A program made the position numbers and the translations under genes. 37,922 nt of DNA. Source: Bacillota bacterium (lineage in GTDB: Bacteria; Bacillota; Sulfobacillia; Sulfobacillales; Sulfobacillaceae). This document shows positions 1,817 to 36,678 of the stretch, piece by piece. Numbering within the stretch: position 1 is the stretch's first letter; the number at the start of each line of letters is the position of its first letter. Location of the stretch: positions 1 to 37,922 of the forward strand of contig JAJYPK010000015.1 in the NCBI GenBank assembly GCA_021795465.1, given 5' to 3'. Under the pieces are notes generated by a model. That model did no database searches, was not told the origin of the DNA, and saw nothing but the letters and a program-made list of their open reading frames with translations.

Positions 1817-3031
1817 ATGACATCACGTCTACCGAACTTTCACATGCTGTCAACCACAGAACGTCTCTGCCTGGTCAGTGAGATGTGCGAGCTATCACCT
1901 GAGGACCTTAACGTGTTTGACCTAGGTGGGATACAAACCCAGTTGGACCACCTCATCGAGAACGCGCTTGGCGTGTTCGCATTGCCTTTTGGGGTAGCGA
2001 CCAATTTTCTCGTCAATAGCGTCGATTACTTGGTGCCGATGGTCGTGGAAGAACCATCCATCGTTGCATCGGCGAGTTATGCCGCCAAACTGGTTCGACA
2101 AGCGGGTGGCTTTCACGCCGAGGCTTCCGCACGCCGCATGATTGGGCAAGTGCAAGTGGTAGGTTGTGAGGACGCCAACACCAGTCGAGAACGACTATTG
2201 GCGCGCTCACAGGATCTGTTGGATTTGGCGAATGATGTGCGCCCCGGCATGAAAATTCGCGGCGGAGGAGCCTTATCCCTGGAGGTTCGGGTGATAGATC
2301 AGGCACCAAACGGAGTGAGATCCCACATGGTCATTGTCCAAGTCCGTGTCGATACGCAAGACGCCATGGGGGCTAATATTATCGACGCCATGATGGAGGG
2401 GATTGCGCCCGCGATAGAAAGTATTGCCGGGGGGACCGCGTATTTACGCATTTTGTCTAATTACACGGACGAATGTTTGGCGCGTGCCGATTGCACGGTT
2501 CCCGCGGCCATGCTTGCCACGCGCGAATTGTCGGGTGAAGCAGTGAGGGATCGTATCATCGCGGCTTATGAATTTGCCGAGGCCGATGTCTATCGCGCGG
2601 TGACTCATAACAAAGGCATCATGAATGGGGTTGATGCCGTAGTTGTAGCCACCGGCAACGATTGGCGGGCAATCGAAGCAGCAGCCCATGCGTTTGCCGC
2701 GCGAGGAGGGCAATATCGGTCCATGACGCGATGGGCAATCAATTCTCGAGGGGACTTGGTCGGATCACTAGAATTACCTATGCCCATTGCGACGGTTGGT
2801 GGGTTTACAGCGCTCAATCCCATGTCGCGCCTCGCTCTGAAGATCTTACGGGTATCTCGGGCAACCGATTTGGCAAAAGTGATAATGGCCGTGGGGTTAG
2901 CCCAAAACCTCGCTGCTTTGCGAGCCCTGGTCACAGAAGGTATTCAAAAAGGCCACATGGCGTTGCATGCGAGGGCGCGCTTAGGCGTGGCCGCCGGCGG
3001 CCCTGCACCGTGGATAGAGATCGAGCGGTAG
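1817..3031 (+). CDS. mvaA: Hydroxymethylglutaryl-CoA reductase, class II
   Basis: A 404-residue enzyme that reduces HMG-CoA to mevalonate, the committed step of the mevalonate pathway. Class II signatures are clear: ENALGVFALPFGVATNFLVN near residue 49, MVVEEPSIVA with the catalytic Glu at 78/79, DAMGANIID at 182-190, NKGIMNG with the catalytic Lys266, and GHMALHARA with the catalytic His near 380. These line up closely with the Pseudomonas mevalonii enzyme. It is soluble with no membrane anchor, as in bacteria. The ATG at 1817 follows GGAGGAGG at about nine bases. Cofactor preference (NADH or NADPH) cannot be decided by eye. It sits 48 bases after pduO and 2 bases before mevalonate kinase. 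Confidence 0.96.
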   Translation: MTSRLPNFHMLSTTERLCLVSEMCELSPEDLNVFDLGGIQTQLDHLIENALGVFALPFGVATNFLVNSVDYLVPMVVEEPSIVASASYAAKLVRQAGGFHAEASARRMIGQVQVVGCEDANTSRERLLARSQDLLDLANDVRPGMKIRGGGALSLEVRVIDQAPNGVRSHMVIVQVRVDTQDAMGANIIDAMMEGIAPAIESIAGGTAYLRILSNYTDECLARADCTVPAAMLATRELSGEAVRDRIIAAYEFAEADVYRAVTHNKGIMNGVDAVVVATGNDWRAIEAAAHAFAARGGQYRSMTRWAINSRGDLVGSLELPMPIATVGGFTALNPMSRLALKILRVSRATDLAKVIMAVGLAQNLAALRALVTEGIQKGHMALHARARLGVAAGGPAPWIEIER

Positions 3032-3033
3032 GG

Positions 3034-3978
3034 ATGCATCGATCCGAATGGCAGGGGCAAGGCTCGGCTCATGGCAAAGTCATTCTCCTCGGTGAACATG
3101 CGGTTGTCTATGGCCACCCTGCCATCGCGTTGCCATTCTCATCCGTGGCGGTGGATGTCCAGGTTATACCAGTGACCGGACTCGACGCATTAGACTGCGC
3201 TTACTATAGGGGACCCCTAGCCGCGGCGCCGAAAACTTTGCTCGGTTTACGCGTCATGATACCCGCGATTCGTGACCGACTGGGGGCGTCGGACGATCCC
3301 GTCCGGATTGTTATCACTTCCACGATTCCTGCCGGGTTCGGTCTTGGTTCTAGTGCCGCCGTGGCCGTTGGAACGATTCGTGCGCTTTATGACCGGTATC
3401 GGGTGCCCCTCTCTCGAGAGGAACTCTGGGACCTGGCTCATCTGGCTGAGACGGTGGTGCACGGGACACCGAGTGGCATCGACGTGAGAGCGGCAAGTAC
3501 GGATAGCCCCTTATGGTTTACCCGTGGCGAGGGTTTGACAACGCTATTGTTGCCTCGACGTCTCTTTTTGGTGGTGGCCACTTCGAATTCACCAGGTCAT
3601 ACGGGCATTATGGTCCGGCGTGTACAGGCCAGCCGACCCAGGACGAACGGGCCGATAGAACGACTTGGCGCATTGACGCACACTGCCCGAGACTGTCTGG
3701 CCTCCGGGGACTATAAGTTATTGGGCACGCTACTAACTGAAGGTCACCAAGAATTAAGGGCATTGAATGTGACCACGCCGGATGTGGACCGCCTCGTGGA
3801 AGCAGCCTTGCTCGGCCAGGCGCTCGGGGCCAAACTTACCGGCAGTGGCGGTGGCGGTACGATTATTGCGTTGGCGCCGGATGCTACGGGCCAACGGAAT
3901 CTCGCCAGGACGCTACAGCGAGCCGGAGCGAAGAATGTCTGGGCACTGACCACACTGGAAAGGGACGTGACTCCATGA
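3034..3978 (+). CDS. mvk: Mevalonate kinase
   Basis: A 314-residue GHMP kinase that phosphorylates mevalonate at C5 with ATP. Motif 1 is SAHGKVILLGEHAVVYGHPA (residues 11-30). The ATP-binding motif 2 is PAGFGLGSSAAVAVG (about 99-113). HGTPSGID contains the likely catalytic Asp150, and motif 3 is KLTGSGGGGTIIAL. Gene order and the AHGKVILLGEHAV signature favour mevalonate kinase over the phosphomevalonate kinase found later in the operon. The ATG at 3034 lies two bases after the reductase stop; its Shine-Dalgarno is weak, and an in-frame GTG at 3010 would overlap the reductase gene. The last bases overlap the next gene in an ATGA. Confidence 0.94.
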   Translation: MHRSEWQGQGSAHGKVILLGEHAVVYGHPAIALPFSSVAVDVQVIPVTGLDALDCAYYRGPLAAAPKTLLGLRVMIPAIRDRLGASDDPVRIVITSTIPAGFGLGSSAAVAVGTIRALYDRYRVPLSREELWDLAHLAETVVHGTPSGIDVRAASTDSPLWFTRGEGLTTLLLPRRLFLVVATSNSPGHTGIMVRRVQASRPRTNGPIERLGALTHTARDCLASGDYKLLGTLLTEGHQELRALNVTTPDVDRLVEAALLGQALGAKLTGSGGGGTIIALAPDATGQRNLARTLQRAGAKNVWALTTLERDVTP

Positions 3979-5006
3979 CGGACACCATGAAGAGAAAGGA
4001 CGAGCATCTAGACATTGCCTTGAACCAATCGATTACTATGGGTCGCTCGGGAGGCTTCGATGAGGTCGAATTTCGGCATCGAGCCCTGCCCGAAGTCGAT
4101 TACGACCGAATTTCCCTACGGACGACTTTTTTGGGGCGCGAATTGGCGGCACCATTTATCATTTCCAGCATGACTGGGGGCACGGAGCGAGGCAAAGACA
4201 TTAATCGGCATTTAGCCGAAGCAGCCCGAGAAATGGGGTTAATCATGGGAGTTGGAAGCCAACGCGTGATGCTGGAAGATCCTTCTACCCGATCAACTTT
4301 TCGTGTAGTCCGTGACGTGGCTCCAGACCTCTATGTGTTGGGAAACTTAGGGGCGGTGCAACTGAATTACGGGCTGAGCCTCCAAGATGCACTAGATGCG
4401 GCGGACGTGATTCGCGCTGACGGCCTATTTTTGCACATGAATCCATTACAAGAGGTTATTCAATCCGGCGGCAATACAGACTTTTCCGGGCTCTTGGATC
4501 GGATTGGTGACTTGGCTACCCACTTACCGATCCCGTTATTGGCCAAAGAGGTGGGGTGCGGAATCGACCCCGAGGTCGCCACTCGATTGGTCGAACGGGG
4601 AATTTCGGCCTTGGATATCAGCGGTGCCGGAGGCACCTCGTGGGCCGCGATAGAAGGGTTTCGTACAACGGATCCGGCGAGAAAGACGATTGCCCAACTT
4701 TTTGCAAACTGGGGTATCCCCACGGCCCAAAGTCTTAGACTATGTCGCTCGCGGTTACCGACATTCCCGTTGATTGCCTCAGGAGGCATTCGTCATGGAT
4801 TAGATGCGGCTAAAGCTCTGGCGTTGGGCGCCAATCTGGTGGGATTGGCCCGTCCCTTATTGGAGCCGGCGACAACGAGTACCAAGGCGGTCATCCATAT
4901 CGTGCAACAATGGATGCTCGAGCTACGCGTTGCCATGTTTCTGGTGGGCGCACCAAGCATAGAGAGTTTAAGGGTCCAACCGTTATACGACAGAGGATTC
5001 CTGTGA
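3975..5006 (+). CDS. fni: Type 2 isopentenyl-diphosphate isomerase (FMN-dependent)
   Basis: A 343-residue protein that interconverts IPP and DMAPP using reduced FMN. It has the type 2 pattern: RKDEHLDIAL at residues 7-16, ISSMTGGT near 63-70, MGVGSQR near 91-97, LHMNPLQEVIQSGGNTDF, the flavin-phosphate segment DISGAGGTSWAAIE, and IASGGIRHG-DAAKALALGA. The barrel matches the family length. The start ATG 3975 overlaps the mevalonate kinase stop (ATGA), with AAAGGG upstream. The stop overlaps the next gene's GTG start. The gene lies inside the mevalonate operon, so C5 unit production and isomerisation are co-expressed. Unrelated type 1 isomerase is not present here. Confidence 0.95.
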   Translation: MTDTMKRKDEHLDIALNQSITMGRSGGFDEVEFRHRALPEVDYDRISLRTTFLGRELAAPFIISSMTGGTERGKDINRHLAEAAREMGLIMGVGSQRVMLEDPSTRSTFRVVRDVAPDLYVLGNLGAVQLNYGLSLQDALDAADVIRADGLFLHMNPLQEVIQSGGNTDFSGLLDRIGDLATHLPIPLLAKEVGCGIDPEVATRLVERGISALDISGAGGTSWAAIEGFRTTDPARKTIAQLFANWGIPTAQSLRLCRSRLPTFPLIASGGIRHGLDAAKALALGANLVGLARPLLEPATTSTKAVIHIVQQWMLELRVAMFLVGAPSIESLRVQPLYDRGFL

Positions 5007-5995
5007 GAACGGTTGTCGCGCGGGCGCACGCTAATATCGCTATGGTCAAATACTGGGGGAAGCGGGATGAGACGCTTAATTTGCCGATGACCGGGAGTAT
5101 TTCCATGACGGTGGACAAACTTTTTGTGACGACCTCCGTGACAGGGGACACCCGTTTGGGGAGTGACCAGGTATTCATTGACGGAGTGCCGGCGTCAGCG
5201 GTCGACCAGATCCGAGTCAGCCAATTTCTGGACGTGATTCGAGGTTCCGTGGGGCAGAAAATGTACGCCTTGGTGCGATCCGAGAATCGGGTGCCGCCAG
5301 GGGCAGGACTGGCGTCCTCGTCAGCCGCTTATGCCGCCCTTGCGATGGCGGCGACGCGAGCTTTCGGAGGAATGCCAGACGTTTGGACATTATCACGCAT
5401 TGCGCGTCGTGGATCCGGGTCTGCAGCACGGTCGATTTTCGGGGGATGGGTGCAATGGCATCGCGGAACGCAAGCGGACGGAAGCGATTCGCTGGCCGAA
5501 CCGATTCTGGGACATCGGCTTCACGATATGGTATTGCAAGCGGTGGTGGTAAACGCCGGTGCCAAAACAATTTCCAGCTGCGAAGGAATGCGCCGAACCG
5601 TAGAGACGTCTCCCTTTTATGAGGCTTGGTTAGAAGCCGTGGAGAACGACCTCGTTCGCATGAGACAAGCGCTTGATAGAGGAGATTTCGCGGGGGTGGG
5701 CCAGATTGCCGAAGCCAACGCCTGGAAGATGCATGCCACGACGATGGGGGCAGACCCGCCCTTTATCTATTGGGAAGGATTTACCTTCGACGTCATCCGG
5801 CGCGTACAGAGCCTTCGAAGAGTGGGTGTTCAAGCCTATTTTACGATTGACGCCGGACCGCATGTTGTGGTGCTGTGTCAACGGGCTGATGTAGGGGTCA
5901 TCCGTGAAGCCATGTTGGCCGTCCCTGGAGTTAAGCAAGTATGGGATTTGAGCCCTGGACCAGGGGCCCAAATAATCGACGAATGCGACGGATGA
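5003..5995 (+). CDS. mvaD: Diphosphomevalonate decarboxylase
   Basis: A 330-residue GHMP-family enzyme that uses ATP to decarboxylate mevalonate diphosphate to IPP. ARAHANIAMVKYWGKRDE (residues 6-23) is the diagnostic N-terminal motif with the substrate-binding Tyr and Lys. Other motifs are GAGLASSSAAYAALAMA (about 100-116), RRGSGSAARSIFGGW (136-149) and the catalytic Asp283 in TIDAGPHVV. I place the start at GTG 5003 because it overlaps the isomerase stop (GTGA) and has AGAGGA five bases upstream. A longer frame starts at 4910 but lies within the previous gene and adds no family residues. The end overlaps the phosphomevalonate kinase ATG. Confidence 0.95.
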   Translation: MRTVVARAHANIAMVKYWGKRDETLNLPMTGSISMTVDKLFVTTSVTGDTRLGSDQVFIDGVPASAVDQIRVSQFLDVIRGSVGQKMYALVRSENRVPPGAGLASSSAAYAALAMAATRAFGGMPDVWTLSRIARRGSGSAARSIFGGWVQWHRGTQADGSDSLAEPILGHRLHDMVLQAVVVNAGAKTISSCEGMRRTVETSPFYEAWLEAVENDLVRMRQALDRGDFAGVGQIAEANAWKMHATTMGADPPFIYWEGFTFDVIRRVQSLRRVGVQAYFTIDAGPHVVVLCQRADVGVIREAMLAVPGVKQVWDLSPGPGAQIIDECDG

Positions 5996-7077
5996 CGACG
6001 GCACGAGCCCCAGGGAAGCTCATGTTGATGGGTGAGTATGCGGTCACTCAGAAGGGCCATCCGAGTGTGGTACTAGCCATCGACCGTGACCTAACGTGTT
6101 CTTTGGCTCCGTCATCAGATTTCTCCCTAAACTTCGTGGGGACGAACATTCCACGAATTACGGCGACCGATTGGAGCACCCTTCGGCGACACATGGCAGA
6201 AACACCGAACCTTGCATTAGTCCATCAGGCATTTTCATGGGTGGATCGATATTTATCTGAAGAAGGCACAGCTATCCCACCGTTTCGGTTGGTGGTGATC
6301 AGTACACTACAATCTCCGCATGGGGTCAAATATGGCTTTGGATCGAGTGCGGCGTTAACGGTTGCCATGGTCGCAGGGTTGTATGCGTTCGCTAGCCACA
6401 AACCCTTGGCACGGGAGGCTATCTTCAAACTGGCTTCACTCGCTCATGTGGGAGTTCAAGCGTTGAGTTCCTGTGCGGATGTAGCGGCCGCCACGTATGG
6501 AGGGCGTCTCCTATATCGCCGGTACGATCCCGGATGGCTCGAAGGACAACTGCACTCGAAGGCCAGTGCGCATCTTCTGATAGAAAAGCCCTGGCCTGAC
6601 CTCCAAATTGTGCCGATGTCACTGAATCCTCTCTTGAGTTTTCGTGTTGGTTGGACAGCGATTCCCGCATCGACACCCAGTTTAATGCGTCGTATGATCG
6701 AATTTCAGCAACGAGAACCGGATCGCTTTAGAGAATTTTTATGGGCGAGTGATGAGGCTGTGGGGCAGTTTGTCCAGGCAGTGGATCAGAATCTTTCAGA
6801 GGATTTTTGTCACGCTGTCTCAAGCAATCGTGAGGCACTGCGACGTCTCTCAGTGATGGCGGCTATCCCTATTGAGACGCCCTTAATCTCCGAGGCTTTA
6901 GGTGTGGTGACGCAAGTGGGCGGTTGTGGGAAAACGTCTGGTGCGGGAGGTGGAGATGCGTTAATAGCATGGCTTAAGAATGATCAGGTCGATGATCTGG
7001 TGCAGCAAAAATGGGCGCAGAGGGGTGTGAGGATGATGTCCATAAGGCCGGTGGCCGAAGGGGTCACCTGCCGGTGA
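5992..7077 (+). CDS. mvaK2: Phosphomevalonate kinase
   Basis: A 361-residue GHMP kinase that converts phosphomevalonate to mevalonate diphosphate. Motif 1 is ARAPGKLMLMGEYAVTQKGH (4-23), motif 2 is GVKYGFGSSAALTVAM (111-126), and the C-terminal motif is GGCGKTSGAGGGDALIAW. The GEYAV and KYGFGSSAA forms are those of the bacterial ERG8-type phosphomevalonate kinases. ATG 5992 is preferred because it makes an ATGA overlap with the decarboxylase stop, like the neighbouring junctions; ATG 5983 is a near alternative. It is the last gene of the operon. No strong intrinsic terminator follows; only weak short inverted repeats are seen around 7095-7125. Confidence 0.93.
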   Translation: MTTARAPGKLMLMGEYAVTQKGHPSVVLAIDRDLTCSLAPSSDFSLNFVGTNIPRITATDWSTLRRHMAETPNLALVHQAFSWVDRYLSEEGTAIPPFRLVVISTLQSPHGVKYGFGSSAALTVAMVAGLYAFASHKPLAREAIFKLASLAHVGVQALSSCADVAAATYGGRLLYRRYDPGWLEGQLHSKASAHLLIEKPWPDLQIVPMSLNPLLSFRVGWTAIPASTPSLMRRMIEFQQREPDRFREFLWASDEAVGQFVQAVDQNLSEDFCHAVSSNREALRRLSVMAAIPIETPLISEALGVVTQVGGCGKTSGAGGGDALIAWLKNDQVDDLVQQKWAQRGVRMMSIRPVAEGVTCR

Positions 7078-26220: not shown

Positions 26221-26703
26221 GTGTCAGAGATTCAAGGCAAGACGGTCGCCAATTCTCGTACAGAAATGACGGAACTCGTATTACCTGGGGACTCCAACGT
26301 GTTGGGGAATATTTTGGGAGGCCGGATCATGCATTGGATTGATCTGGCGGCAGCCATGGCGGCCGCGCGTCACGCAGGGCATGTAGCTGTTACCGCGTCG
26401 ATGGACAGCGTCGAATTTCTACATCCCGTAAAGGTGGGTCAAGTGGTAATCTTGGTCGCTCAAGTGAATTGGGCGGGTCGCACCTCTATGGAGATTGGGG
26501 TGGAGGTGTTTCGAGAAGACATGGCAGGGGATGTGAAGAAAACGAGTACCGCCTTTCTCACTTTTGTTGCCCTCGATGATACAGGTAAGCCGGTCGAGGT
26601 GCCTCCGTTAATCCTCAGTACTCCAGAGGAAGAAGAAAGGTTTCACGCCGCCGAATCGCGCCGAGCGGAGCGGCTCCGTCACCGCACACACACTAACAAC
26701 TAA
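26221..26703 (+). CDS. Hotdog-fold acyl-CoA thioesterase (YciA/BACH type)
   Basis: A 160-residue hotdog protein. The motif LVLPGDSNVLGNILGGRIMH, followed by WIDLAAAMAAARHAGHVAVT, includes the catalytic Asp/Asn region and the helix of the YciA/BACH acyl-CoA hydrolases. DSVEFLHPVKVGQVV and TSTAFLTFVALDDTGKPVEV follow as in the family. The C-terminal tail is Glu/Arg-rich. It would hydrolyse acyl-CoAs to free acid and CoA in the cytoplasm. The start is GTG 26221 with AGGAGGG eight bases upstream. It precedes the amidohydrolase by 16 bases, so the two are probably co-transcribed. Confidence 0.9.
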   Translation: MSEIQGKTVANSRTEMTELVLPGDSNVLGNILGGRIMHWIDLAAAMAAARHAGHVAVTASMDSVEFLHPVKVGQVVILVAQVNWAGRTSMEIGVEVFREDMAGDVKKTSTAFLTFVALDDTGKPVEVPPLILSTPEEEERFHAAESRRAERLRHRTHTNN

Positions 26704-28067: not shown

Positions 28068-28725
28068 CTACGGCCGACGCACCCGAGGTTCAGACGTTTC
28101 CCCGATGGCCGGATTTGTAGGCGTCTCGAAGTAGTCATGAGATTTCAAGGGTACCTCTTGTAAGAAGAATGTCCCAATAAAGGCGGCTGCCGCAAGCAAC
28201 AAGCCCGCGAAAAACATGTCGTGCATCCCATCGGTCAGAGCCGTGACTAATCCCGGTCCAGTCCAGACGCACGCGGTGATCGGCACGCACCGTGGGAAGG
28301 CTGATGAGGACCATTACTAAGGCGACGGCAGCAATCGGTAAATTAATGTCAAACACCCACCGCCAACCTAATGTGTCGGTAATCCATCCACCAAGGGTAA
28401 GCCCAATAATCGATGCTAACCCAAACACGCCACCAATGACTCCCATCCAGCGATCTCGCAAGGAGTGAAGATATCGCCGATGGTGGCTCGCGGCATGCTC
28501 AGCATCGCTCCAGCACCAAGGCCCTGGCCGGCACGGGCCAATACCAACTGCATCATGGTATACGCTTGTCCGGATACGGCAGACCCTACCATAAACAAAA
28601 TAAGGCCGAGAACATAGAATGGTTACCGACCAAAGGTATCCGACAGTTTCCCGTATATGGGTACGGTGACGGCGGACGCCATCATGTATGTGGTAAAGAC
28701 CCATGAATTGCTTTTTTTCGATGAT
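28068..28725 (-). pseudogene. Decayed DHA2-type MFS multidrug exporter
   Basis: Leftward pieces in order are [27 protein letters not shown], an in-frame stop where the next basic residue belongs, LVLARAGQGLGAGAMLSMPR ATIGDIF, a frameshift, then RWMGVIGGVFGLASIIGLTL and GWRWVFDINLPIAAVALVMV. A large deletion then joins to a C-terminal helix (FFAGLLLAAAAFIGTFFLQE VPLKS). The signatures are those of 14-TM EmrB/QacA-like exporters. Helix 1 and the central helices are missing. It is dead by stop, frameshift and deletion. Confidence 0.78.
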
Positions 28726-28995
28726 ACGGTTGGTGTTTTGAAGGAGATTTGGTTCCTTTGTCAATCATTGAGGCCTCCACAAGATACATTACTTCGTATT
28801 GGCAATTATTAGTATATCTAACTATCGTCTAATGGCAAATACTTCTCCGTGCAAAATATATTTGGGACGTCCCTAAACGCGACGCTGACTTTTGGGGGAC
28901 AAAGTCTTCAGTTCCGATAATCTGGGTCATGTCCGCCGTAGAAATCGAGAAAATCTAGACGATCAAAATCCACGAATGAAGGGGCAATCCCGATA

Positions 28996-29225: not shown

Positions 29226-29459
29226 ATGCCTTCAGCTCAATTACTCGTAGTTCTGACTCGCCTCACCAGCATCTTGGTCGATGTGGCAGGTGGAGTCTTC
29301 ACGCTGGTGATGGTGTACGGAGGAATCCGGCTTATGGTGGCCCACAGTCCGCGAGCGGTGCAGGGCTCAAAAGAATTAATGGGACGGGCCGCAGTGGGTC
29401 TCGCGCTCATACTCTTGGTCGATGTCATTCGACAGTTGTTGCAATATGTTGTCTCTTAA
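29226..29459 (+). CDS. VirB2/TrbC-like pilin-type membrane protein
   Basis: A 77-residue protein with two hydrophobic helices: LVDVAGGVFTLVMVYGGIRL at about residues 15-35 and GRAAVGLALILLVDVIRQLL at 51-70. A short basic loop separates them (SPRAVQGSKEL). Size and hairpin topology fit VirB2/TrbC-like or related two-helix subunits found at the start of Gram-positive conjugation operons. Sequence identity to a family cannot be tested here, so the call rests on topology and neighbours. ATG 29226 has GGAGGGG six bases upstream. The end overlaps the next gene. Confidence 0.6.
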   Translation: MPSAQLLVVLTRLTSILVDVAGGVFTLVMVYGGIRLMVAHSPRAVQGSKELMGRAAVGLALILLVDVIRQLLQYVVS

Positions 29460-30231
29460 CCCTTTAGTGTGGTCGTTGGATAAGGTCTCACAGTGGGTGG
29501 ATCAGGGGCTTGGCCAAATCTCGCGCCGTTTATTTCAGCAAATTGTATTCGTCCCCATTCCATGGGGCCGAGTGGCCACCCACTTATATCGTAGCAATCT
29601 CGGGTTAAGCATTGGAGCTCTGACATTGGTGTTCACCTGGACGGTGTTAAGAACGATGTGGCCAGCTGGCGGTATGTTGGGTCATCAACCTTACGCGACC
29701 TCCCTACAACGCACGGTGACGGCAGCCCTGATTGCTCTAGCTGGGGAACCTGTGGTTCACGGTCTATTGACGCTTAACGATGCGCTGGTGGCGTCCTTTC
29801 TGCGCTCCAACACGACCGCCACCGTAGTGGGTTCGACACGGATTGAACTGTCGGTAAATCCTTTACTGGCCTTGGTGTTGGGGGCCCTGGTCTTGGCCTT
29901 GCTAATCTATCTAGGGCTCTTTTACGCGTTGAGAACTGTAGAAATTTACGTCCTAACCGGTCTTATCCCCTGGTTTGCGGTGCTATGGAGCGGGGGTTCC
30001 GATGAGAGTTGGTTGACCAACATCAGCAAGGAATTGGCGGTCGCCATTTTTGTTCAAAGTGTACATGCCATGGTGTTTTGGCTCTTCTTGCATCTCGTTA
30101 CTCATACCACGACTGTGGCTGATGAATTTTTAGAAGCAGGTGTTTTATGGTATATGACCAAGGTTCCGGGTCAATTGCGTCGATTGTTAGGGGCCCAGAG
30201 TAACCCGACAAGGCTTTTGTCATGGATATAA
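29446..30231 (+). CDS. VirB6/TrbL-like polytopic membrane protein
   Basis: A 261-residue protein with about five or six hydrophobic segments, for example SIGALTLVFTWTVLRTM, LLALVLGALVLALLIYLGLF and AVAIFVQSVHAMVFWLFLHL. An amphipathic N-terminus (LDKVSQWVDQGLGQISRRLF) precedes them. This topology and the place after a VirB2-like and before a PrgI-like gene are those of VirB6/TrbL channel subunits of type IV secretion systems. ATG 29446 overlaps the previous gene by 14 bases and lacks a clear Shine-Dalgarno; ATG 29422 is an alternative. No catalytic motif is seen or expected. Confidence 0.6.
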   Translation: MLSLNPLVWSLDKVSQWVDQGLGQISRRLFQQIVFVPIPWGRVATHLYRSNLGLSIGALTLVFTWTVLRTMWPAGGMLGHQPYATSLQRTVTAALIALAGEPVVHGLLTLNDALVASFLRSNTTATVVGSTRIELSVNPLLALVLGALVLALLIYLGLFYALRTVEIYVLTGLIPWFAVLWSGGSDESWLTNISKELAVAIFVQSVHAMVFWLFLHLVTHTTTVADEFLEAGVLWYMTKVPGQLRRLLGAQSNPTRLLSWI

Positions 30232-30506
30232 CCCGGGTCGTGCCCGTCCCGTTATCTAAAGAACCCGCGGTGTTATGGGGCCTTGGTCTCAAAGATCTGA
30301 TCTGGCTCGCTTTGGGGGTAATCCTTGACTTACTGCTATGGCCTCACTCGGCAAAACAGATGGTGGATCATGTGGTGGCCATCATTGTGCTCAGTGGCGC
30401 GACGGTCGCATTGGCGGTCCTGCGCTACCAAGATCTCTCGATCCCTGCTTGGTGTCTCATCGCATCACGATTCCTGGCGTCACCCAAACGTTACATCCCG
30501 TACTAA
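30222..30506 (+). CDS. PrgI/VirB3-like membrane protein
   Basis: A 94-residue protein with two hydrophobic helices (LKDLIWLALGVILDLLLWPH and HVVAIIVLSGATVALAVLRY), followed by YQDLSIPAWCLIASRFLASPKRY. The N-terminal VPVPLSKEPAVLWGLGLKDL and the C-terminal tail with an aromatic/basic end are typical of PrgI-family proteins, the Gram-positive counterparts of VirB3. They lie next to VirB4 in conjugation operons, as here. It overlaps the VirB6-like gene by ten bases. Confidence 0.72.
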   Translation: MDITRVVPVPLSKEPAVLWGLGLKDLIWLALGVILDLLLWPHSAKQMVDHVVAIIVLSGATVALAVLRYQDLSIPAWCLIASRFLASPKRYIPY

Positions 30507-30546
30507 TCGCGATAAATTTATAAGATTTGGAGAGGAAGTATGTACG

Positions 30547-31137
30547 ATGGCTGTATCCATTAATCGACTGTTACCGATTCGTGCCATTGGCCCAGGACTC
30601 TGTCTCATCGACCAGGACCGCTTTTCCTCGATTGCCGAGGCGGTTCCGGTCAACTTCTCTTTACGGTCTGAGGGCGACCAACAACGCCTTATCCATGGCT
30701 ATACCAAATTCCTCAACGGACTAGAATTCCCTGTCGAGTTGTTGGTTCGCTCAGACATATTGCGACTTGATGACTATCTCGGGGACTTAAAGACCCGAGA
30801 AGATGAAATCGAACCCCATTTAAGACCATCGTTAGGGGACTACATCGACTTTATTAAAGAAACTGTATCGGTAAACCATTTGTTGCGTCGCCGTTTCTTT
30901 GTGGTGTTGTCCTGGCAAGGATTAGATTCTCGAAGACGCCCCAAGCAACGCGGTGAAGTGCTATGGGACGAGGCTACGGCCGCATTGGACAGGCGTCGTG
31001 ACATTGTGACACAGGGACTCCGCCCTCTTGGGATTCGCCTCAGGTCATTCACCACAGAAGAAACTTTTCGTTTCTTTTACGCGAGTTTGGGAGGTGGTCA
31101 ATCGCTGCCCAAGGGGGTTAATTGGGCGTGGGACTAA
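30547..31137 (+). CDS. Separate VirB4/TraC N-terminal domain protein
   Basis: A 196-residue soluble protein, LLPIRAIGPGLCLIDQDRFS then VPVNFSLRSEGDQQRLIHGY, with LNGLEFPVELLVRSDILRLD and VNHLLRRRFFVVLSW. This is the alpha/beta N-terminal part normally fused to VirB4/TraC ATPases. It has no Walker motifs. It directly precedes the ATPase gene and overlaps it, so the two products probably act together as one VirB4 unit. ATG 30547 follows GGAGAGGAAG. A longer frame upstream lies inside the PrgI-like gene and is ignored. Confidence 0.65.
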   Translation: MAVSINRLLPIRAIGPGLCLIDQDRFSSIAEAVPVNFSLRSEGDQQRLIHGYTKFLNGLEFPVELLVRSDILRLDDYLGDLKTREDEIEPHLRPSLGDYIDFIKETVSVNHLLRRRFFVVLSWQGLDSRRRPKQRGEVLWDEATAALDRRRDIVTQGLRPLGIRLRSFTTEETFRFFYASLGGGQSLPKGVNWAWD

Positions 31138-32807
31138 AGGGTAAGGCAAAGAGAAGGGACCATAGTTCGGTGCAGGCGATTTTTCCGAGCGATATTCAAC
31201 TCTATCCAGGCGAATGGGAGATGCAGGGTCGGTGGTATCGCAGTTTTGTGGTCACGGCCTATCCGCGCGAGGTGAAGCCGGGTTGGTTCGAGCCGCTACT
31301 CCGATTCCCACGCCCGATGACGTTATCGGTGTATTCGGCACCTATCCCGACCGATGTCGTTCTGGGTTCGATGCAACGGTCCCTATTGTGGAATCTCGGA
31401 ACCTTCGAGGCGAATCAGGCTAGTGGACGCCTGGTCGACCCCCTACATCGGACGGCGATCGAGGATACGGAGCGGATGCGACAAGGCATTGCGCGCGGGG
31501 AAACCCGTCTCATCGACACTGCCTTGACGCTAACTGTCTCCGCGGGTAGCAAGCCGGAACTCGACGAATCTTCCAACCTCCTGATGAGTTTGGCTTCAGG
31601 CATGTTATTAGTTATCCGACGTCTATCCTTTCAACCAGAGGTTGGCTTAAAGCGTATGTTACCGGTATTTGATGATCCAGCGCATCCTCGACCCATGGAT
31701 ACGGGAGCCTGGGCTACACTCTTTCCCTACGCCGCCCAGGAACTCATTCATCCGAAGGGCCAAGTGTTTGGCACGAATGGCACGAGCCATTCGCTGGTAA
31801 TTGTCGACCGGTTTGCGTTGCCTTCGCCTCACTCTATTACGGTGGCGTGGTCGGGAGCGGGAAAGAGCTTTCAGGCCAAGCTGGAGATATTGCGTACTCG
31901 ATATCGAGGGATTCCGGTCAAGGTCTTGGACCCCGAAGGAGAGTATCGCGTATTAGAGACCGTCGGGGCAAAAGTGTGGGCGGTAGGAGATCCTAACGGT
32001 CCCGGGTTCCCATGGGACCCGTTCACCATCGATGCCGAAGAGAGTCCCGAAGACATCGAACGTCAAACCGATTTCTTAGTGCAATTTATACGGCGTCTGG
32101 ATCCTGACCTGCCAGAACTCATAGCCGTCGTGGAGCAGGCACTGTGGCGCCTCGTAAAGCGTCAAGATTCCTCCACGTTGGTTTTCCGTAGGGATCCACG
32201 ACACCTCTGTGACGACAATTCACTGATTCGCGCGGTAACCGCGATAAACTCTCATTTTGGAGAACGGCTCGATTCCATCGTCCAACGCTGGCGCATCTTG
32301 GTTCCCGAAACCACCACCCCGGGAGAGGATTTCGAGGTGTACGACATGAGTCGATTAACTCAACGCATGAAGGCGGCTGCATACCTGGCATTGACCGAAC
32401 ATATCGCGCGAACTGTCGATAAGGCTCGGCGTCAACTGGTGGTCTTCGATGAAGCGTGGCAGCTCTTAACAGACGAAGGTACCGTCGGTTATTTAGAATC
32501 TTTATTTCGCCGAGCGCGGAAATGGGGAACGGCGTTGTCGCTGATTACCCAGGATATTGGCGACTTCACCCGGAGTCGCTCAGCGGAAGTGTGCTTACGT
32601 AATGCACCGTTGATTCTATTGTTACGTCAACATCCGGAGAGCCTTTTAGAGTTAACCACGTTACTGCGGCTGCATCAGGGCGAGGTGGATCTTCTCGCGG
32701 TAGCGCAGCGAGGAGAGGGGCTTTTAATCGTCGGTGATGATCACGTGCCCTTGCATGTCGAAGCGTCTCCCTTTGAGGCCAAAATCCTGGCTGGCCAAAG
32801 CCAATAA
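31128..32807 (+). CDS. virB4: VirB4/TraC-like type IV secretion ATPase
   Basis: A 559-residue ATPase. Walker A is ITVAWSGAGKSFQAK (about residue 240), followed by GIPVKVLDPEGEYRVLETVG, the VirB4 beta-strand after the P-loop. Walker B is QLVVFDEAWQLL, followed by LESLFRRARKWGTALSLITQ and a DIGDF motif. These are diagnostic of the VirB4/TraC/HerA group, which energises pilus assembly and substrate transfer. The first 230 residues are a partial N-terminal module; the rest of that module is the preceding gene. GTG 31128 and TTG 31122 are both possible starts behind AAGGGGG. No coupling protein (VirD4) is in the window. Confidence 0.88.
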   Translation: MGLKGKAKRRDHSSVQAIFPSDIQLYPGEWEMQGRWYRSFVVTAYPREVKPGWFEPLLRFPRPMTLSVYSAPIPTDVVLGSMQRSLLWNLGTFEANQASGRLVDPLHRTAIEDTERMRQGIARGETRLIDTALTLTVSAGSKPELDESSNLLMSLASGMLLVIRRLSFQPEVGLKRMLPVFDDPAHPRPMDTGAWATLFPYAAQELIHPKGQVFGTNGTSHSLVIVDRFALPSPHSITVAWSGAGKSFQAKLEILRTRYRGIPVKVLDPEGEYRVLETVGAKVWAVGDPNGPGFPWDPFTIDAEESPEDIERQTDFLVQFIRRLDPDLPELIAVVEQALWRLVKRQDSSTLVFRRDPRHLCDDNSLIRAVTAINSHFGERLDSIVQRWRILVPETTTPGEDFEVYDMSRLTQRMKAAAYLALTEHIARTVDKARRQLVVFDEAWQLLTDEGTVGYLESLFRRARKWGTALSLITQDIGDFTRSRSAEVCLRNAPLILLLRQHPESLLELTTLLRLHQGEVDLLAVAQRGEGLLIVGDDHVPLHVEASPFEAKILAGQSQ

Positions 32808-32831
32808 ATTTCTATGAGTGAGGTGATAGCA

Positions 32832-33386
32832 GTGGCGTTTTCATTCAGAGTACCGAGGTCGGGAGCGATAGCCATGCTGGTCACGGGTGTGGTCTACACC
32901 GTCCTCAGTCTTCCGCATCTTCTGTCGACGACAGTGACCGTGCCCGTGGCGAAGTCCTTTCTAGCCCGTGGTAGTAGGATCTCTGCATCGGACATCGGTT
33001 ACACCAAGATTGGAGCCGGTCATTTCAACCCGGTCGCCGGAATGGTTTTGAAAACCTCGATTGTTCCGGGTGAAATGCTTAGCGATAAGGTGGTGGGATC
33101 CAGAGCATCACAACCGTCGCCGGGAGGTGTTCTCGTAGCTATCGTGCCATCTGAGGCAGCTGACCTGGCTGTAGTGACGCCGGGTAGTGACATCCGTGTG
33201 GTGTTGATTCCACATCATGGTCGACTTTGGAGTTCTCCCACTGAACGGGTGGTCTCCTTGTCTGGAGGCGGCGGGGTGTTGGGGGGTGGGCCCTCGTCGA
33301 TTGTCATTCGATTGCCGTTCGCGCTCGCCGAACAATACTTTTCTTTAGTGGGCCAAGCCGGCGTATTTGTGGTCGGTGCGCCATGA
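32832..33386 (+). CDS. SAF-domain (CpaB/FlgA-like) membrane-anchored protein
   Basis: A 184-residue protein. One N-terminal membrane helix (GAIAMLVTGVVYTVLSLPHL) is followed by a SAF domain. This has TVPVAKSFLARGSRISASDI and IVPGEMLSDKVVGSR, then GVLVAIVPSEAADLAVVTPG with VRVVLIP-like strands. The domain occurs in CpaB of Tad pili and in FlgA chaperones, and also in Gram-positive mobile elements. A periplasmic or cell-wall side location is implied. GTG 32832 is chosen because GAGGTG lies six bases upstream; ATG 32814 gives six extra residues with no ribosome binding site. Confidence 0.68.
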   Translation: MAFSFRVPRSGAIAMLVTGVVYTVLSLPHLLSTTVTVPVAKSFLARGSRISASDIGYTKIGAGHFNPVAGMVLKTSIVPGEMLSDKVVGSRASQPSPGGVLVAIVPSEAADLAVVTPGSDIRVVLIPHHGRLWSSPTERVVSLSGGGGVLGGGPSSIVIRLPFALAEQYFSLVGQAGVFVVGAP

Positions 33387-34330
33387 TCCTAGCAGCGACG
33401 GGACACGAGGCTGTGGATCACTTTCTGGAGACGCAGAGTGAATCGGTAACACGTATGAGAGATTGGACTCAATTGCGAGGATGCCTGGCTGATGCGACGC
33501 ATTTGGTACTGAGCGAAAGGCTTAACGGGCTGCCTTCGTGGGATGAAGTGAACGAAGTCGTAGAGGCTCATACCACGTTGCATTGGCTGATTTGGCTCCC
33601 GGAACGTATGCGTAATACGGAGGAAGTGCTTGGCGGAGCGGAGTTGGTATTTGGAGATCTCGAGGCAGTAAGACTTACGACCTGGCTCGAAAAGGATTGG
33701 TCGCGAGAAAGTGTTCGTCTCGCGTTAACCAAGCGATGGATCGTCTGGAGGCCAGGCTTGGAATTTAATCAAAAAATCTTGTCCTGGATTGGGGACCAAG
33801 CGCAGCACCAATATGGGTCAGGGTGCTGGGTGGACCTGGATTGGCATAATGCACAGCTCACGGCGCGTTGGGATCCCGATGCGTGGAAACATACGAGCGT
33901 GGAGTATGCCAGGTTAAAGGCCAGAAAAGCTCGCCAGGGTTGCTTGGTAGTAGCACCGCCACCGTGGCACCTTTTCTATGAGACGCCAGAAGCAAATGAC
34001 ATTCAGGGATTGATGCGTCGCGATTATGCCTGGCAGGGACTGGATGTAGGGGCTGATCTACGGCCACCTTTTGTCATGCGCGCGATTGAGGCGGTATCCC
34101 AAGCCATCATTCTTATGGAAGAACCTTGGATCCGGGTGTTAGAAGAAGGATTGAAGATCCTGAAAACGGTCAACCCGGATTTGGATCTGGTGGGAATTGG
34201 GGAATCTGATGCAGTAGCACGAGTTATTAGCCAGGTTGGAACATGGATTCCATGGGAATCGGCCGGGAGTCCCTCGCACCGCCCCGGATTTTTTAAAAAG
34301 TGGCCGTCGATAAGACTGCATAAGTCTTAA
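33383..34330 (+). CDS. TadZ/CpaE-like protein lacking a visible Walker A motif
   Basis: A 315-residue protein. The first 110 residues (ILAATGHEAVDHFL, HLVLSERLNGLPSWDEVNE, LVFGDLEAVRLTTWL) look like the receiver-like N-terminal domain of TadZ/CpaE. In the second half, GCWVDLDWHNAQLTARWD resembles the VDLDxxxGxL strand of MinD/TadZ ATPases. GCLVVAPPPWHLFYETPEAN matches their lPaP segment. The expected KGGxGxT P-loop before that strand is absent; the sequence there is KILSWIGDQAQHQYG. It overlaps the SAF gene by four bases. The fold assignment is inference from motif order. Confidence 0.45.
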   Translation: MILAATGHEAVDHFLETQSESVTRMRDWTQLRGCLADATHLVLSERLNGLPSWDEVNEVVEAHTTLHWLIWLPERMRNTEEVLGGAELVFGDLEAVRLTTWLEKDWSRESVRLALTKRWIVWRPGLEFNQKILSWIGDQAQHQYGSGCWVDLDWHNAQLTARWDPDAWKHTSVEYARLKARKARQGCLVVAPPPWHLFYETPEANDIQGLMRRDYAWQGLDVGADLRPPFVMRAIEAVSQAIILMEEPWIRVLEEGLKILKTVNPDLDLVGIGESDAVARVISQVGTWIPWESAGSPSHRPGFFKKWPSIRLHKS

Positions 34331-35358: not shown

Positions 35359-35410
35359 GCGGAACGAAGACCAGGTCTCCCAATATGTCGAAGGGTATCG
35401 AACGATGAAC

Positions 35411-35810
35411 CTATAACCAACCTAGGCTATTTCGGAAAACAACGAAGGGAGCAATCGGACAGGATTACGGTCGCTGTCACTTGTTATGCTGAGGACCCAA
35501 GACCCAAAAGAAAACTCAGTGTTTAGGGGGTTCCGTTAGAGGATTTATACCCCAAAGAGGCAGTCCGTTATGGCAAAACCCTATGTATGGCACCTGAATG
35601 ATCCCTAGTTTATTCCATATCGTCAGCCGCCCAGGTCATTTTTGCACGATTTTAGAGAGGCCGAACGATGCCGGTAACGTGGCCGAGCGCTCTTCCGTTC
35701 CTCGTGACCGGAGGAGTGAGGATAGTCCCTCCGGCCAGGGACATTTCGGCAGGTTGACGCCTGCCGCCGTGGTATGCGCGACAATCCTCTTATCGGATAG
35801 GGTCGATAGG
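35411..35810. other. Gap with two strong hairpins
   Basis: No gene is recognised. Two adjacent perfect stems are present: CCGGAGG/CCTCCGG (35708-35734) and CGGCAGG-TTGACG-CCTGCCG (35747-35766). They lie just beyond the 3' end of the leftward transposase at 35811 and may belong to its element end. A leftward frame here largely shadows the transposase. Confidence 0.45.
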
Positions 35811-36678
35811 TTAAGCAGGGGGCGGGACAGTTCCGACTGGAGGGATATGTTGAGTGAAATGCGGTTGTCGTCGACATATCATACGCCATGAAAGTCCCCC
35901 GTGAGTTAAGGCCCAGAGACCCAAGCACCAGAGGGCATGGGTGCGAGTTTTTGCCGTATTGGCTCGCCATTGGCGGGCCAGACCGCGCACTTCCACATCC
36001 CATCCGGCGACGTTGAGCCAGTAATAGGCCCACGCAAAGACCAGCCACAGGCGGTCCCAGCGTTCGGCGGTCCCCAATTTCACACAATCGAGATGGAATC
36101 CTGCTCCTGGATCATTTTTTTGATAGGTAAACCGTTGCCCATATCCGGCCACGATGTCTCCCCAGGCCAGGTCGGTCAATCCGGCCGACACCATGAGAAA
36201 CCAGGGATCTGCGTGAGCGGGGTCCGCATAGACGACCAGACGCCCCTGATAGGGACCATCCGCAGCCTTTTTCCCATACCGGACGCTCCCATCTAAGTGG
36301 AGCGGCCGTGCCTTTCCCAGCCCACTTAGGAGGAGCCACCGACCCTGCCACTGCACGCCCCCATTGCCCTGGCTGCGAATAATCCAGTCCCAGCCGAGAC
36401 CGTCCAAAAAGCGAAAGAATCGGCCCGTGGCAAATCCACGGTCCGCGAGCAAAATGGGATGACACCCATGAGGTAACAGACGGGCGACGCGCGCACATAA
36501 CGTTTCTTCATAATCCTGCATGTGGTCTTTCAGATTGACTTTGACCACCGTCATCCAGGCAATCGGCATCGCGCGCCCATGGGCACGCACATTAATACTG
36601 AGGGTTTGAAAGCACCCATCTTTGGTTTTGGGACACGCGGCCAATGTTCGGCTGGATTTCGGACAATTGGCGGGTCAT
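35811..36678 (-). pseudogene. DDE transposase with internal deletion (IS4/IS701-like)
   Basis: The N-terminal start MTRQLSEIQPNIGRVSQN (ATG 36678) is out of frame with the rest. About 100 residues, including the first catalytic Asp region, are missing. The remaining 277 residues include HGRAMPIAWMTVV, ILLADRGFATGRFFRFLDGL (second Asp), DWIIRSQGN, and YQKNDPGAGFHLDCVKLGTA ERWDRLWLVFAWAYYWLNVA. The last block aligns in position with the Y-(2)-R-(3)-E-(6)-K signature, but the Glu is replaced. A non-functional copy is most likely. Confidence 0.65.

Follow-up and report, generated by a model that had tools for sequence, protein, structure and literature searches.

A conserved chromosomal cluster of VirB-like and Tad-like genes in Sulfobacillaceae and related bacteria

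Introduction

What kind of machine is encoded by seven genes that combine proteins of a type IV secretion system (T4SS) with proteins of the Tad pilus? We asked this question for positions 29226 to 34330 of contig JAJYPK010000015.1 (assembly GCA_021795465.1, a Bacillota bacterium of the family Sulfobacillaceae). The contig was analysed as one stretch of 37,922 nucleotides, which is called the window in the following. It is an entire contig (C231) of a 3.58 Mb genome (G000), and therefore there is no assembled sequence to the right of it. An earlier note on the same DNA had considered a distinct conjugation machine or a pilus-like device; what we find is not a mobile element but an order-wide fixture of the chromosome. 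The explanation that we favour, with moderate confidence, is that of a domesticated conjugation-type machine of monoderm bacteria, fixed on the chromosome in the order of Sulfobacillus-like bacteria, in which a Tad motor takes the place of VirB11.

Results

Gene content of the cluster

All seven open reading frames (ORFs) lie on the plus strand, and neighbours overlap or are within about 40 bases of each other; in this, as in the protein families, our analysis agrees with the earlier note. The first gene (29226..29459) encodes a VirB2-like pilin of 77 amino acids that matches T4SS_pilin (PF18895) with an E value of 1.4e-5 (25.5 bits, cut-off 26.6); by eye, it has two membrane helices with a short basic loop between them and no obvious signal peptide. 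It is among the most conserved products, with a mean identity of 67% over 30 family copies, and is 100% identical to the copy of a same-genus relative (locus L031) despite a proportion of synonymous differences (pS) of 0.48. Next come a VirB6-like polytopic membrane protein of 261 amino acids (29446..30231; TrbL_4, PF19597, 1.3e-4, below cut-off), whose orthologues are present in 31 loci, and a VirB3/PrgI-like membrane protein of 94 amino acids (30222..30506), which matches PrgI (PF12666, 4.5e-4) and the NCBIfam SCO6880 family (3e-4), both below cut-off.

VirB4 is encoded in two pieces. Its N-terminal half has a gene of its own (30547..31137; compare TrsD), with no Pfam match and a match to the NCBIfam CD1110-type VirB4 at its N-terminus (0.007). 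The family profile of this piece also matches the separate VirB4 N-terminal genes of Patescibacteria, with values of about 1e-18 to 7e-31 in most loci. The C-terminal ATPase (VirB4-C, 561 amino acids, 31122..32807) matches CD1110 VirB4 at 4.4e-58 and AAA_10 at 3.8e-7, the latter being the sole Pfam match above cut-off among the seven products. Its Walker A motif (WSGAGKS) and Walker B residues (DE) are intact, and W243, S244, G245, G247, K248, S249, D443 and E444 are invariant across 31 sequences.

The last two genes encode a SAF-domain membrane protein similar to RcpC and CpaB (32832..33386; SAF 0.0036, below cut-off) and a TadZ/CpaE-like protein (33383..34330; no Pfam match). Both assignments draw on the folds of AlphaFold2 models, computed from alignments of 27 SAF and 31 TadZ-like sequences. 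The SAF model (predicted local distance difference test, pLDDT, 81.6) has its top solved match in RcpC, a component of the Tad alignment complex, with Foldseek E values of 3.8e-6 (9gzr) and 6.1e-6 and a VIA Z of 8.6 across 85 residues, a middling value; the orthologue in L031 passes the Pfam cut-off (1.4e-5). In the TadZ-like model (pLDDT 87.9), residues 1-109 have a VIA Z of about 12 to receiver domains, and residues 116-299 one of 13.9 to a ParA-type protein (174 residues, 3.5 A). A receiver domain joined to a ParA/MinD-like domain is the layout of TadZ and CpaE, and both identities proposed earlier for this pair of genes are upheld by the models. By Foldseek alone the TadZ-like model is borderline (E about 1e-3); solved TadZ/CpaE structures were not among the matches listed for it, an absence that does not count against the assignment. 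No P-loop is present in the inspected part of the orthologue alignment; D151, the last D of a WVDLD motif, is invariant. Judged by sequence, the protein would be a pseudo-ATPase, that is, a ParA/MinD-like domain without P-loop; TadZ has been described as an atypical P-loop ATPase (sections of PMC6668835). In summary, the region holds a real set of seven genes: VirB2, VirB6, VirB3/PrgI, a split VirB4, an RcpC/CpaB-like SAF protein and a TadZ-like protein.

Distribution in the family and the order

How widespread is this set? VirB4-C occurs in 32 of 34 family genomes and in all 11 genera. All seven genes stand on one strand and in one order in 30 of the 31 genomes for which the stretch was examined (L031 and L032 were taken as the same contigs as G155:C89 and G178:C91 and counted once); the 31st, G152, starts at a contig end inside virB4-C. 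Because order and strand are kept in so many genomes and the genes are under purifying selection (see below), the grouping is not due to chance. The gene order and the predicted folds together confirm the union of a T4SS core with Tad-type proteins that the earlier note had read from a single sequence. The site is conserved as well: an upstream neighbour, thioesterase-like by eye (26221..26703, plus strand), stands outside the machine and marks a fixed chromosomal position; of the 30 complete loci, 22 have its orthologue within the fetched stretch, and it also adjoins the cluster in genomes from further families of the order.

A class-wide search with VirB4-C covered 121 genomes, 44 of which had a match of some kind. 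Strong matches (1.5e-148 or better) were found in all four genomes sampled from other families of the order. Two of these, G410 and G429, have a whole operon of ten genes beside the thioesterase-like gene; in G416 the operon is present in part, cut by a contig end at the VirB4 side, and the complete genome G389 (G389:C1:1594001-1624000; L264, L265) has two copies of it about 13 kb apart, one with VirB4 in pieces. The distribution of the cluster is at least order-wide. A genome of another family, G361, has VirB2, VirB6, VirB4 and TadA in a row, possibly on a mobile element.

The tadABC genes

The three additional genes of the operon are tadA, tadB and tadC. Downstream of the seven genes, L031 has tadA (T2SSE 1.3e-46), two genes for T2SSF-like membrane proteins (0.012 and 9.8e-4, neither reaching cut-off) and then one for a DD-carboxypeptidase. 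TadA matches TIGR03819 at 8.2e-74 and a VirB11 model at 1.1e-57, both under cut-off. The core TadA (at least 46% identity) is present in 29 of 34 family genomes, with a fragment in G160; searches of G177 and G180 did not recover it. In 16 genomes tadA lies immediately 3' of tadZ, and 13 of these have tadB and tadC in the fetched stretch; otherwise it stands about 4 kb off (two genomes), nearby on the opposite strand (one), or 20-30 kb off or on another contig. All-against-all clustering of the neighbouring ORFs gave no further gene conserved as a member of the cluster. The SAF and TadZ genes, which the earlier note had called Tad accessory genes, are thus real, but the Tad part is larger than these two genes, since tadABC lies within the operon in half of the relatives. 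Having tadABC behind tadZ in these relatives rules out a system of seven genes only. The core of VirB2, VirB3, VirB6 and split VirB4 probably formed one ancestral ten-gene operon with SAF, TadZ, TadA and TadB/TadC.

In the genome studied here, the tadA orthologue (89% identical to that of L031) is located on contig C64 together with tadB, tadC and the carboxypeptidase. The window itself contains, at 35377..35596 on the plus strand, a sequence 91% identical to the stretch that immediately precedes tadA on C64; it ends a few codons into tadA and has transposase-like sequence on its flanks. Next to it is a DDE transposase-like ORF (35811..36644, minus strand; DDE_Tnp_1 1e-4, 22.6 bits, cut-off 23), the region of which matches the left end of C64 with 88% DNA identity. 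On the grounds of these two matches, an insertion-sequence rearrangement probably parted tadABC from the seven-gene cluster in this genome.

Two observations concern the surroundings of these genes. In the scanned loci, only this genus has the D-alanyl-D-alanine carboxypeptidase 3' of tadC (Peptidase_S11 1.1e-30; L031 8405-9598, G000:C64 8400-9620), which might help the machine through the wall. The genome also has a separate, ordinary Tad locus on contig C118 (L061 5208-10964, minus strand), with cpaB, cpaE, cpaF, tadB, tadC and, by eye, a DUF192-like gene; its CpaE has ParA/AAA_31 matches. No second, ordinary Tad match of this kind was obtained in G151, G152, G154 or G156.

Descent and selection

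Does the machine descend with the chromosome? The distances of VirB4-C, VirD4, TadA, TadZ and VirB6 are correlated with those of a phosphomannomutase-like protein (Pgm) and of the thioesterase (r 0.69-0.79, 0 of 2000 permutations each, n 12-22). Among the machine parts themselves the protein distances give r 0.73-0.91, with r 0.81 for VirD4 and VirB4-C. Distances for Pgm, VirD4 and the thioesterase include only the genomes with fetched loci (15, 17 and 22, respectively). The products of the cluster are 60-100% identical to their closest relative, and the ratio of nonsynonymous to synonymous substitution rates (dN/dS) against L031 is between 0 and about 0.11 wherever dS is measurable; for the VirB4 N-terminal half and TadZ it could not be computed because synonymous sites are saturated. 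There are no internal stops in the ten genes. The machine descends vertically and is under purifying selection.

In quick tree searches, the core TadA sequences (28 rows, leaving out the fragment L139 from G161 and ORFs under 280 amino acids) form one clade with support 100, apart from the ordinary Tad of the family; the core VirB4-C sequences (15 rows) likewise form one clade with support 100. The VirB4 tree used 15 chosen core copies and the first 10 Patescibacteria loci, without ORFs under 350 amino acids, and has the core and the mobile Tad-linked copies as sisters with a support of only 83. Two possible origins were rejected on these trees. A descent from the ordinary Tad of the family finds no support in the TadA tree, which has long branches and an unsure placement of the plasmid TadA, and a descent from Patescibacteria disagrees with the separate VirB4 clades, again from a quick search with long branches.

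A second locus with VirD4

The earlier note had seen neither a relaxase nor a coupling protein here, which is right locally, but a VirD4 sits at a second conserved chromosomal locus, on contig C229 in this genome. Matches to PF02534 occur in 26 of 34 family genomes and fall into two size classes. The conserved class, of about 480-515 amino acids, lies between Pgm (a phosphomannomutase-like gene by eye) and minC, and its profile gives a single strong match in 27 of 34 genomes, in 21 of the 23 good ones and in all 11 genera. The core VirD4 at G000:C229 scores above cut-off (PF02534 8.6e-13); directly after it stands a Replic_Relax protein (2.6e-5, just under cut-off), and the family Replic_Relax profile has matches in all 17 VirD4 loci examined.

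The same pair of VirD4 and Replic_Relax is annotated in the Embleya plasmid NZ_CP108778, which has VirB4, VirD4, Replic_Relax, SAF and TadA within one region. The VirB4-C profile matches this plasmid at 4e-90 and the mobile copies of the family at 2e-62 or weaker; for the VirD4 profile the values are 4e-46 and 1.6e-10 or weaker. Since both profiles favour the Embleya plasmid over the family's mobile copies, the comparison suggests that the virB-tad locus and the VirD4 locus may be parts of one former machine.

Missing components and other features of the window

ComEC (PF03772) was found in none of the 34 family genomes and in 10 of 14 control genomes; DprA was above cut-off in just 7 of 34 and in 10 of 14, respectively. 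A whole family without a ComEC match and with DprA in a minority only is unusual for bacteria. No integrase is conserved beside the cluster, and no match was found when the TadZ-like protein was compared with plasmids by tblastn. A defence system was also tried as a reading and rejected, as the PADLOC matches were limited to a generic ATPase profile (mad8) and to weak ones for GajB.

Elsewhere in the window, overlapping ORF pieces upstream of virB2 (28068-28764, minus strand) resemble, by eye, the remains of a multidrug-type transporter gene, and an HMG-CoA reductase together with a GHMP kinase (1817-7077) suggests a mevalonate-type pathway cluster.

Discussion

How would such a machine work, and what would it transport? 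Going by the families, VirB3 and VirB6 would form a membrane channel on a VirB4 ring, with VirB2 subunits making a short conduit. TadA may take the role that VirB11 has in diderms, as a second motor with TadB/TadC as its platform, and TadZ and the RcpC-like SAF protein may serve placement and ring. Less surely, VirD4 and Replic_Relax would hand over DNA, and the machine would move chromosomal DNA from cell to cell; it is the presence of these two proteins that suggests DNA as the cargo. By comparison with archaeal Ced and Ups and with Helicobacter ComB, DNA exchange would be the likeliest function.

Several observations weigh against a domesticated machine for DNA exchange. The scores of VirB2, VirB3, VirB6 and Replic_Relax are just under the curated Pfam cut-offs; yet, for the three VirB proteins, type, order and place are kept in 30 genomes. 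The partnership of VirD4 with the cluster is inferred from co-distribution and shared relatives, not from linkage, and in G175 (91% complete) the cluster is present with no VirD4 match. In G156 (96% complete), VirB4-C, core TadA and VirD4 are all missing together, which we counted in favour; since G156 also has no ordinary Tad, this co-loss is not specific. As to an enzyme that would produce single-stranded DNA, none was recognised: among the relaxases we searched for PF03432, which is found in 5 of 34 family genomes and 1 of 14 controls, the match in this genome covering 30 positions only and lying on another contig. Neither VirB8 nor a wall hydrolase is conserved in the cluster, where they were looked for. 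The absence of ComEC is equally compatible with no DNA import at all. No SOS-like GAACN4GTTC box is present in the window or in L031, so that a link to DNA damage of the Ced type is unsupported. Finally, the TadZ profile had no match in 298 other genomes of the phylum, a sample without other families of the order; this null had first suggested a family-only system, which was dropped after the class-wide search and the loci it led to.

We also weighed other explanations. Chromosomally fixed T4SSs without a relaxase often secrete proteins, and VirD4 can carry proteins. The cluster could then be a protein-secretion or contact-dependent machine in which VirD4 couples protein effectors or envelope proteins and not DNA, which would agree with the lack of a conserved relaxase. 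On the other hand, no effector-like gene is conserved beside the cluster or the VirD4 locus, and Replic_Relax adjoins VirD4, as it does in a plasmid; we consider protein secretion unlikely, although it is the strongest of the competitors. A surface pilus or adhesion device, in which the Tad motor builds a filament, either type IV-like or made of VirB2, with the VirB4 part as an accessory, is suggested by TadA, TadB, TadC, TadZ and the RcpC-like protein, which amount to the inner-membrane part of a Tad pilus. No Flp pilin, TadE/F protein or prepilin peptidase is conserved near the cluster, however (remote genes would still be compatible with this), this genome has its ordinary Tad locus elsewhere, the catalytic residues of VirB4 are invariant and VirB2 ranks with the best-conserved products, all of which makes a pilus improbable.

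Helicobacter pylori ComB, a chromosomal T4SS for DNA uptake with VirB11 encoded apart (sections of PMC13395361), offers a precedent for a competence machine that takes up free DNA with the aid of a VirB11-type ATPase. The usual route through ComEC and DprA is missing in the present family, and an uptake across the single membrane would need the T4SS channel itself. We know of no precedent in monoderm bacteria for DNA uptake through the T4SS channel itself. Moreover, ComB passes its DNA to ComEC, of which there is none in the 34 genomes, and we give competence little credit. Least probable by far is a decaying integrative element or plasmid remnant: transposase-like ORFs at the right end of the window and the separation of tadABC from the cluster would fit it, but it is already contradicted by the conserved site and gene order, which together with vertical descent and purifying selection extend over 30 genomes and further families, and by the lack of internal stops. 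An intact integrative and conjugative element (ICE) or plasmid is ruled out by the conserved site, a descent that tracks housekeeping genes, the distribution in 32 of 34 genomes and the lack of a conserved integrase or relaxase beside the cluster; a standard ICE with all its parts nearby, which the earlier note had named as a finding that would speak against its own reading, was not found.

Comparison with known systems

Is the combination of T4SS and Tad genes itself new? The earlier note had called it uncommon, which has to be taken with caution. No paper on an order-wide fixed operon of this kind came up in a literature search that excluded most subscription journals and preprints, but the combination as such occurs on other elements. 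Linear plasmids of Cutibacterium carry a T4SS and tad genes on one element (sections of PMC5696575), and VirB4 is found together with TadA/SAF genes in the Embleya plasmid NZ_CP108778 and the Alicyclobacillus plasmid NZ_CP066785. All of these differ from the present system in being mobile; on the Embleya plasmid, VirD4, Replic_Relax, a wall hydrolase and TadE-type pilins are encoded nearby, and the Alicyclobacillus plasmid carries a lytic transglycosylase. Within the family, mobile or plasmid-like elements in G165:C2 (248,656 bases; L210/L211), G166:C1 (about 366-404 kb; L212/L213) and G164:C131 (L214) combine VirB4, VirB6, TadA and partly SAF, TadZ or VirD4, and are candidate mobile relatives of the fixed machine. 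What looks new is thus the fixed, stripped and order-wide form, T4SS and Tad genes on mobile elements being already known.

The T4SS part resembles the MPF_FATA type of monoderm bacteria and its relative in Patescibacteria, with a PF18895 VirB2, PrgI/VirB3, VirB6, a separate VirB4 N-terminal piece and an often distant coupling protein; a split, TrsD-like VirB4 and a remote coupling gene are known from these systems (sections of PMC12102498). Tad is never named in the main text on MPF_FATA and Patescibacteria (PMC12102498, as far as consulted), the Patescibacteria loci that we examined have no SAF, TadZ or TadABC match, and the VirB4 core clade is separate from theirs. With the T4SSs of Gram-positive bacteria the machine shares a VirB3/VirB4/VirB6/VirD4 translocon, and these systems lack a VirB11 homologue according to a 2025 review (sections of PMC12857230). 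The operon described here, in contrast, encodes an ATPase of the VirB11/secretion ATPase superfamily, TadA. A monoderm T4SS that is chromosomally fixed and has a Tad motor encoded in its own operon bears on that statement of the review (PMC12857230, same sections). TadA, TadB, TadC, TadZ and an RcpC/CpaB-like protein are likewise found in the Tad pilus (sections of PMC6668835), from which the conserved cluster differs by having no pilin, pseudopilin or prepilin peptidase, by a TadZ without P-loop and by being joined to VirB genes.

Helicobacter pylori ComB/ComB11 is similar in that the cell has co-opted a chromosomal core T4SS, needed for DNA uptake, and a VirB11-family ATPase encoded apart; it is a diderm system for free DNA, and Tad parts are not mentioned in the sections consulted (PMC13395361), while here there is no ComEC. 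Another thermophile, Thermus, reportedly pushes DNA out by an unusual route, transjugation.

The archaeal Ced/Ted and Ups systems of Sulfolobales are alike in several respects: VirB2, VirB4 and VirB6 are chromosomally domesticated without a relaxase, the Ced VirB4 consists of two pieces (CedB/CedD) as does the split VirB4 here, and the system works with a type IV pilus equipped with an ATPase and a platform of its own, in heat-loving hosts (sections of PMC9905601 and PMC11868833). The CedB equivalog model gives VirB4 only 24 bits against a cut-off of 700, i.e. no sequence membership, and the system described here differs in being bacterial, in having its Tad motor in the same operon and in the presence of VirB3 and VirD4. 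As an experiment made by nature, it bears on the ways in which motors of T4SSs and type IV pili can be combined, and it is a testable candidate for gene exchange in acid-loving, heat-tolerant bacteria without ComEC. Tentatively, and with rather less confidence than in the explanation favoured above, we propose by analogy that it may be a bacterial counterpart of Ced/Ups: an order-wide domesticated machine of monoderm acidophiles in which a Tad motor, made of TadABC together with TadZ and a ring of the RcpC-like protein, would replace VirB11 and drive a VirB2-VirB3-VirB4-VirB6 channel for the exchange of chromosomal DNA between ComEC-less cells.

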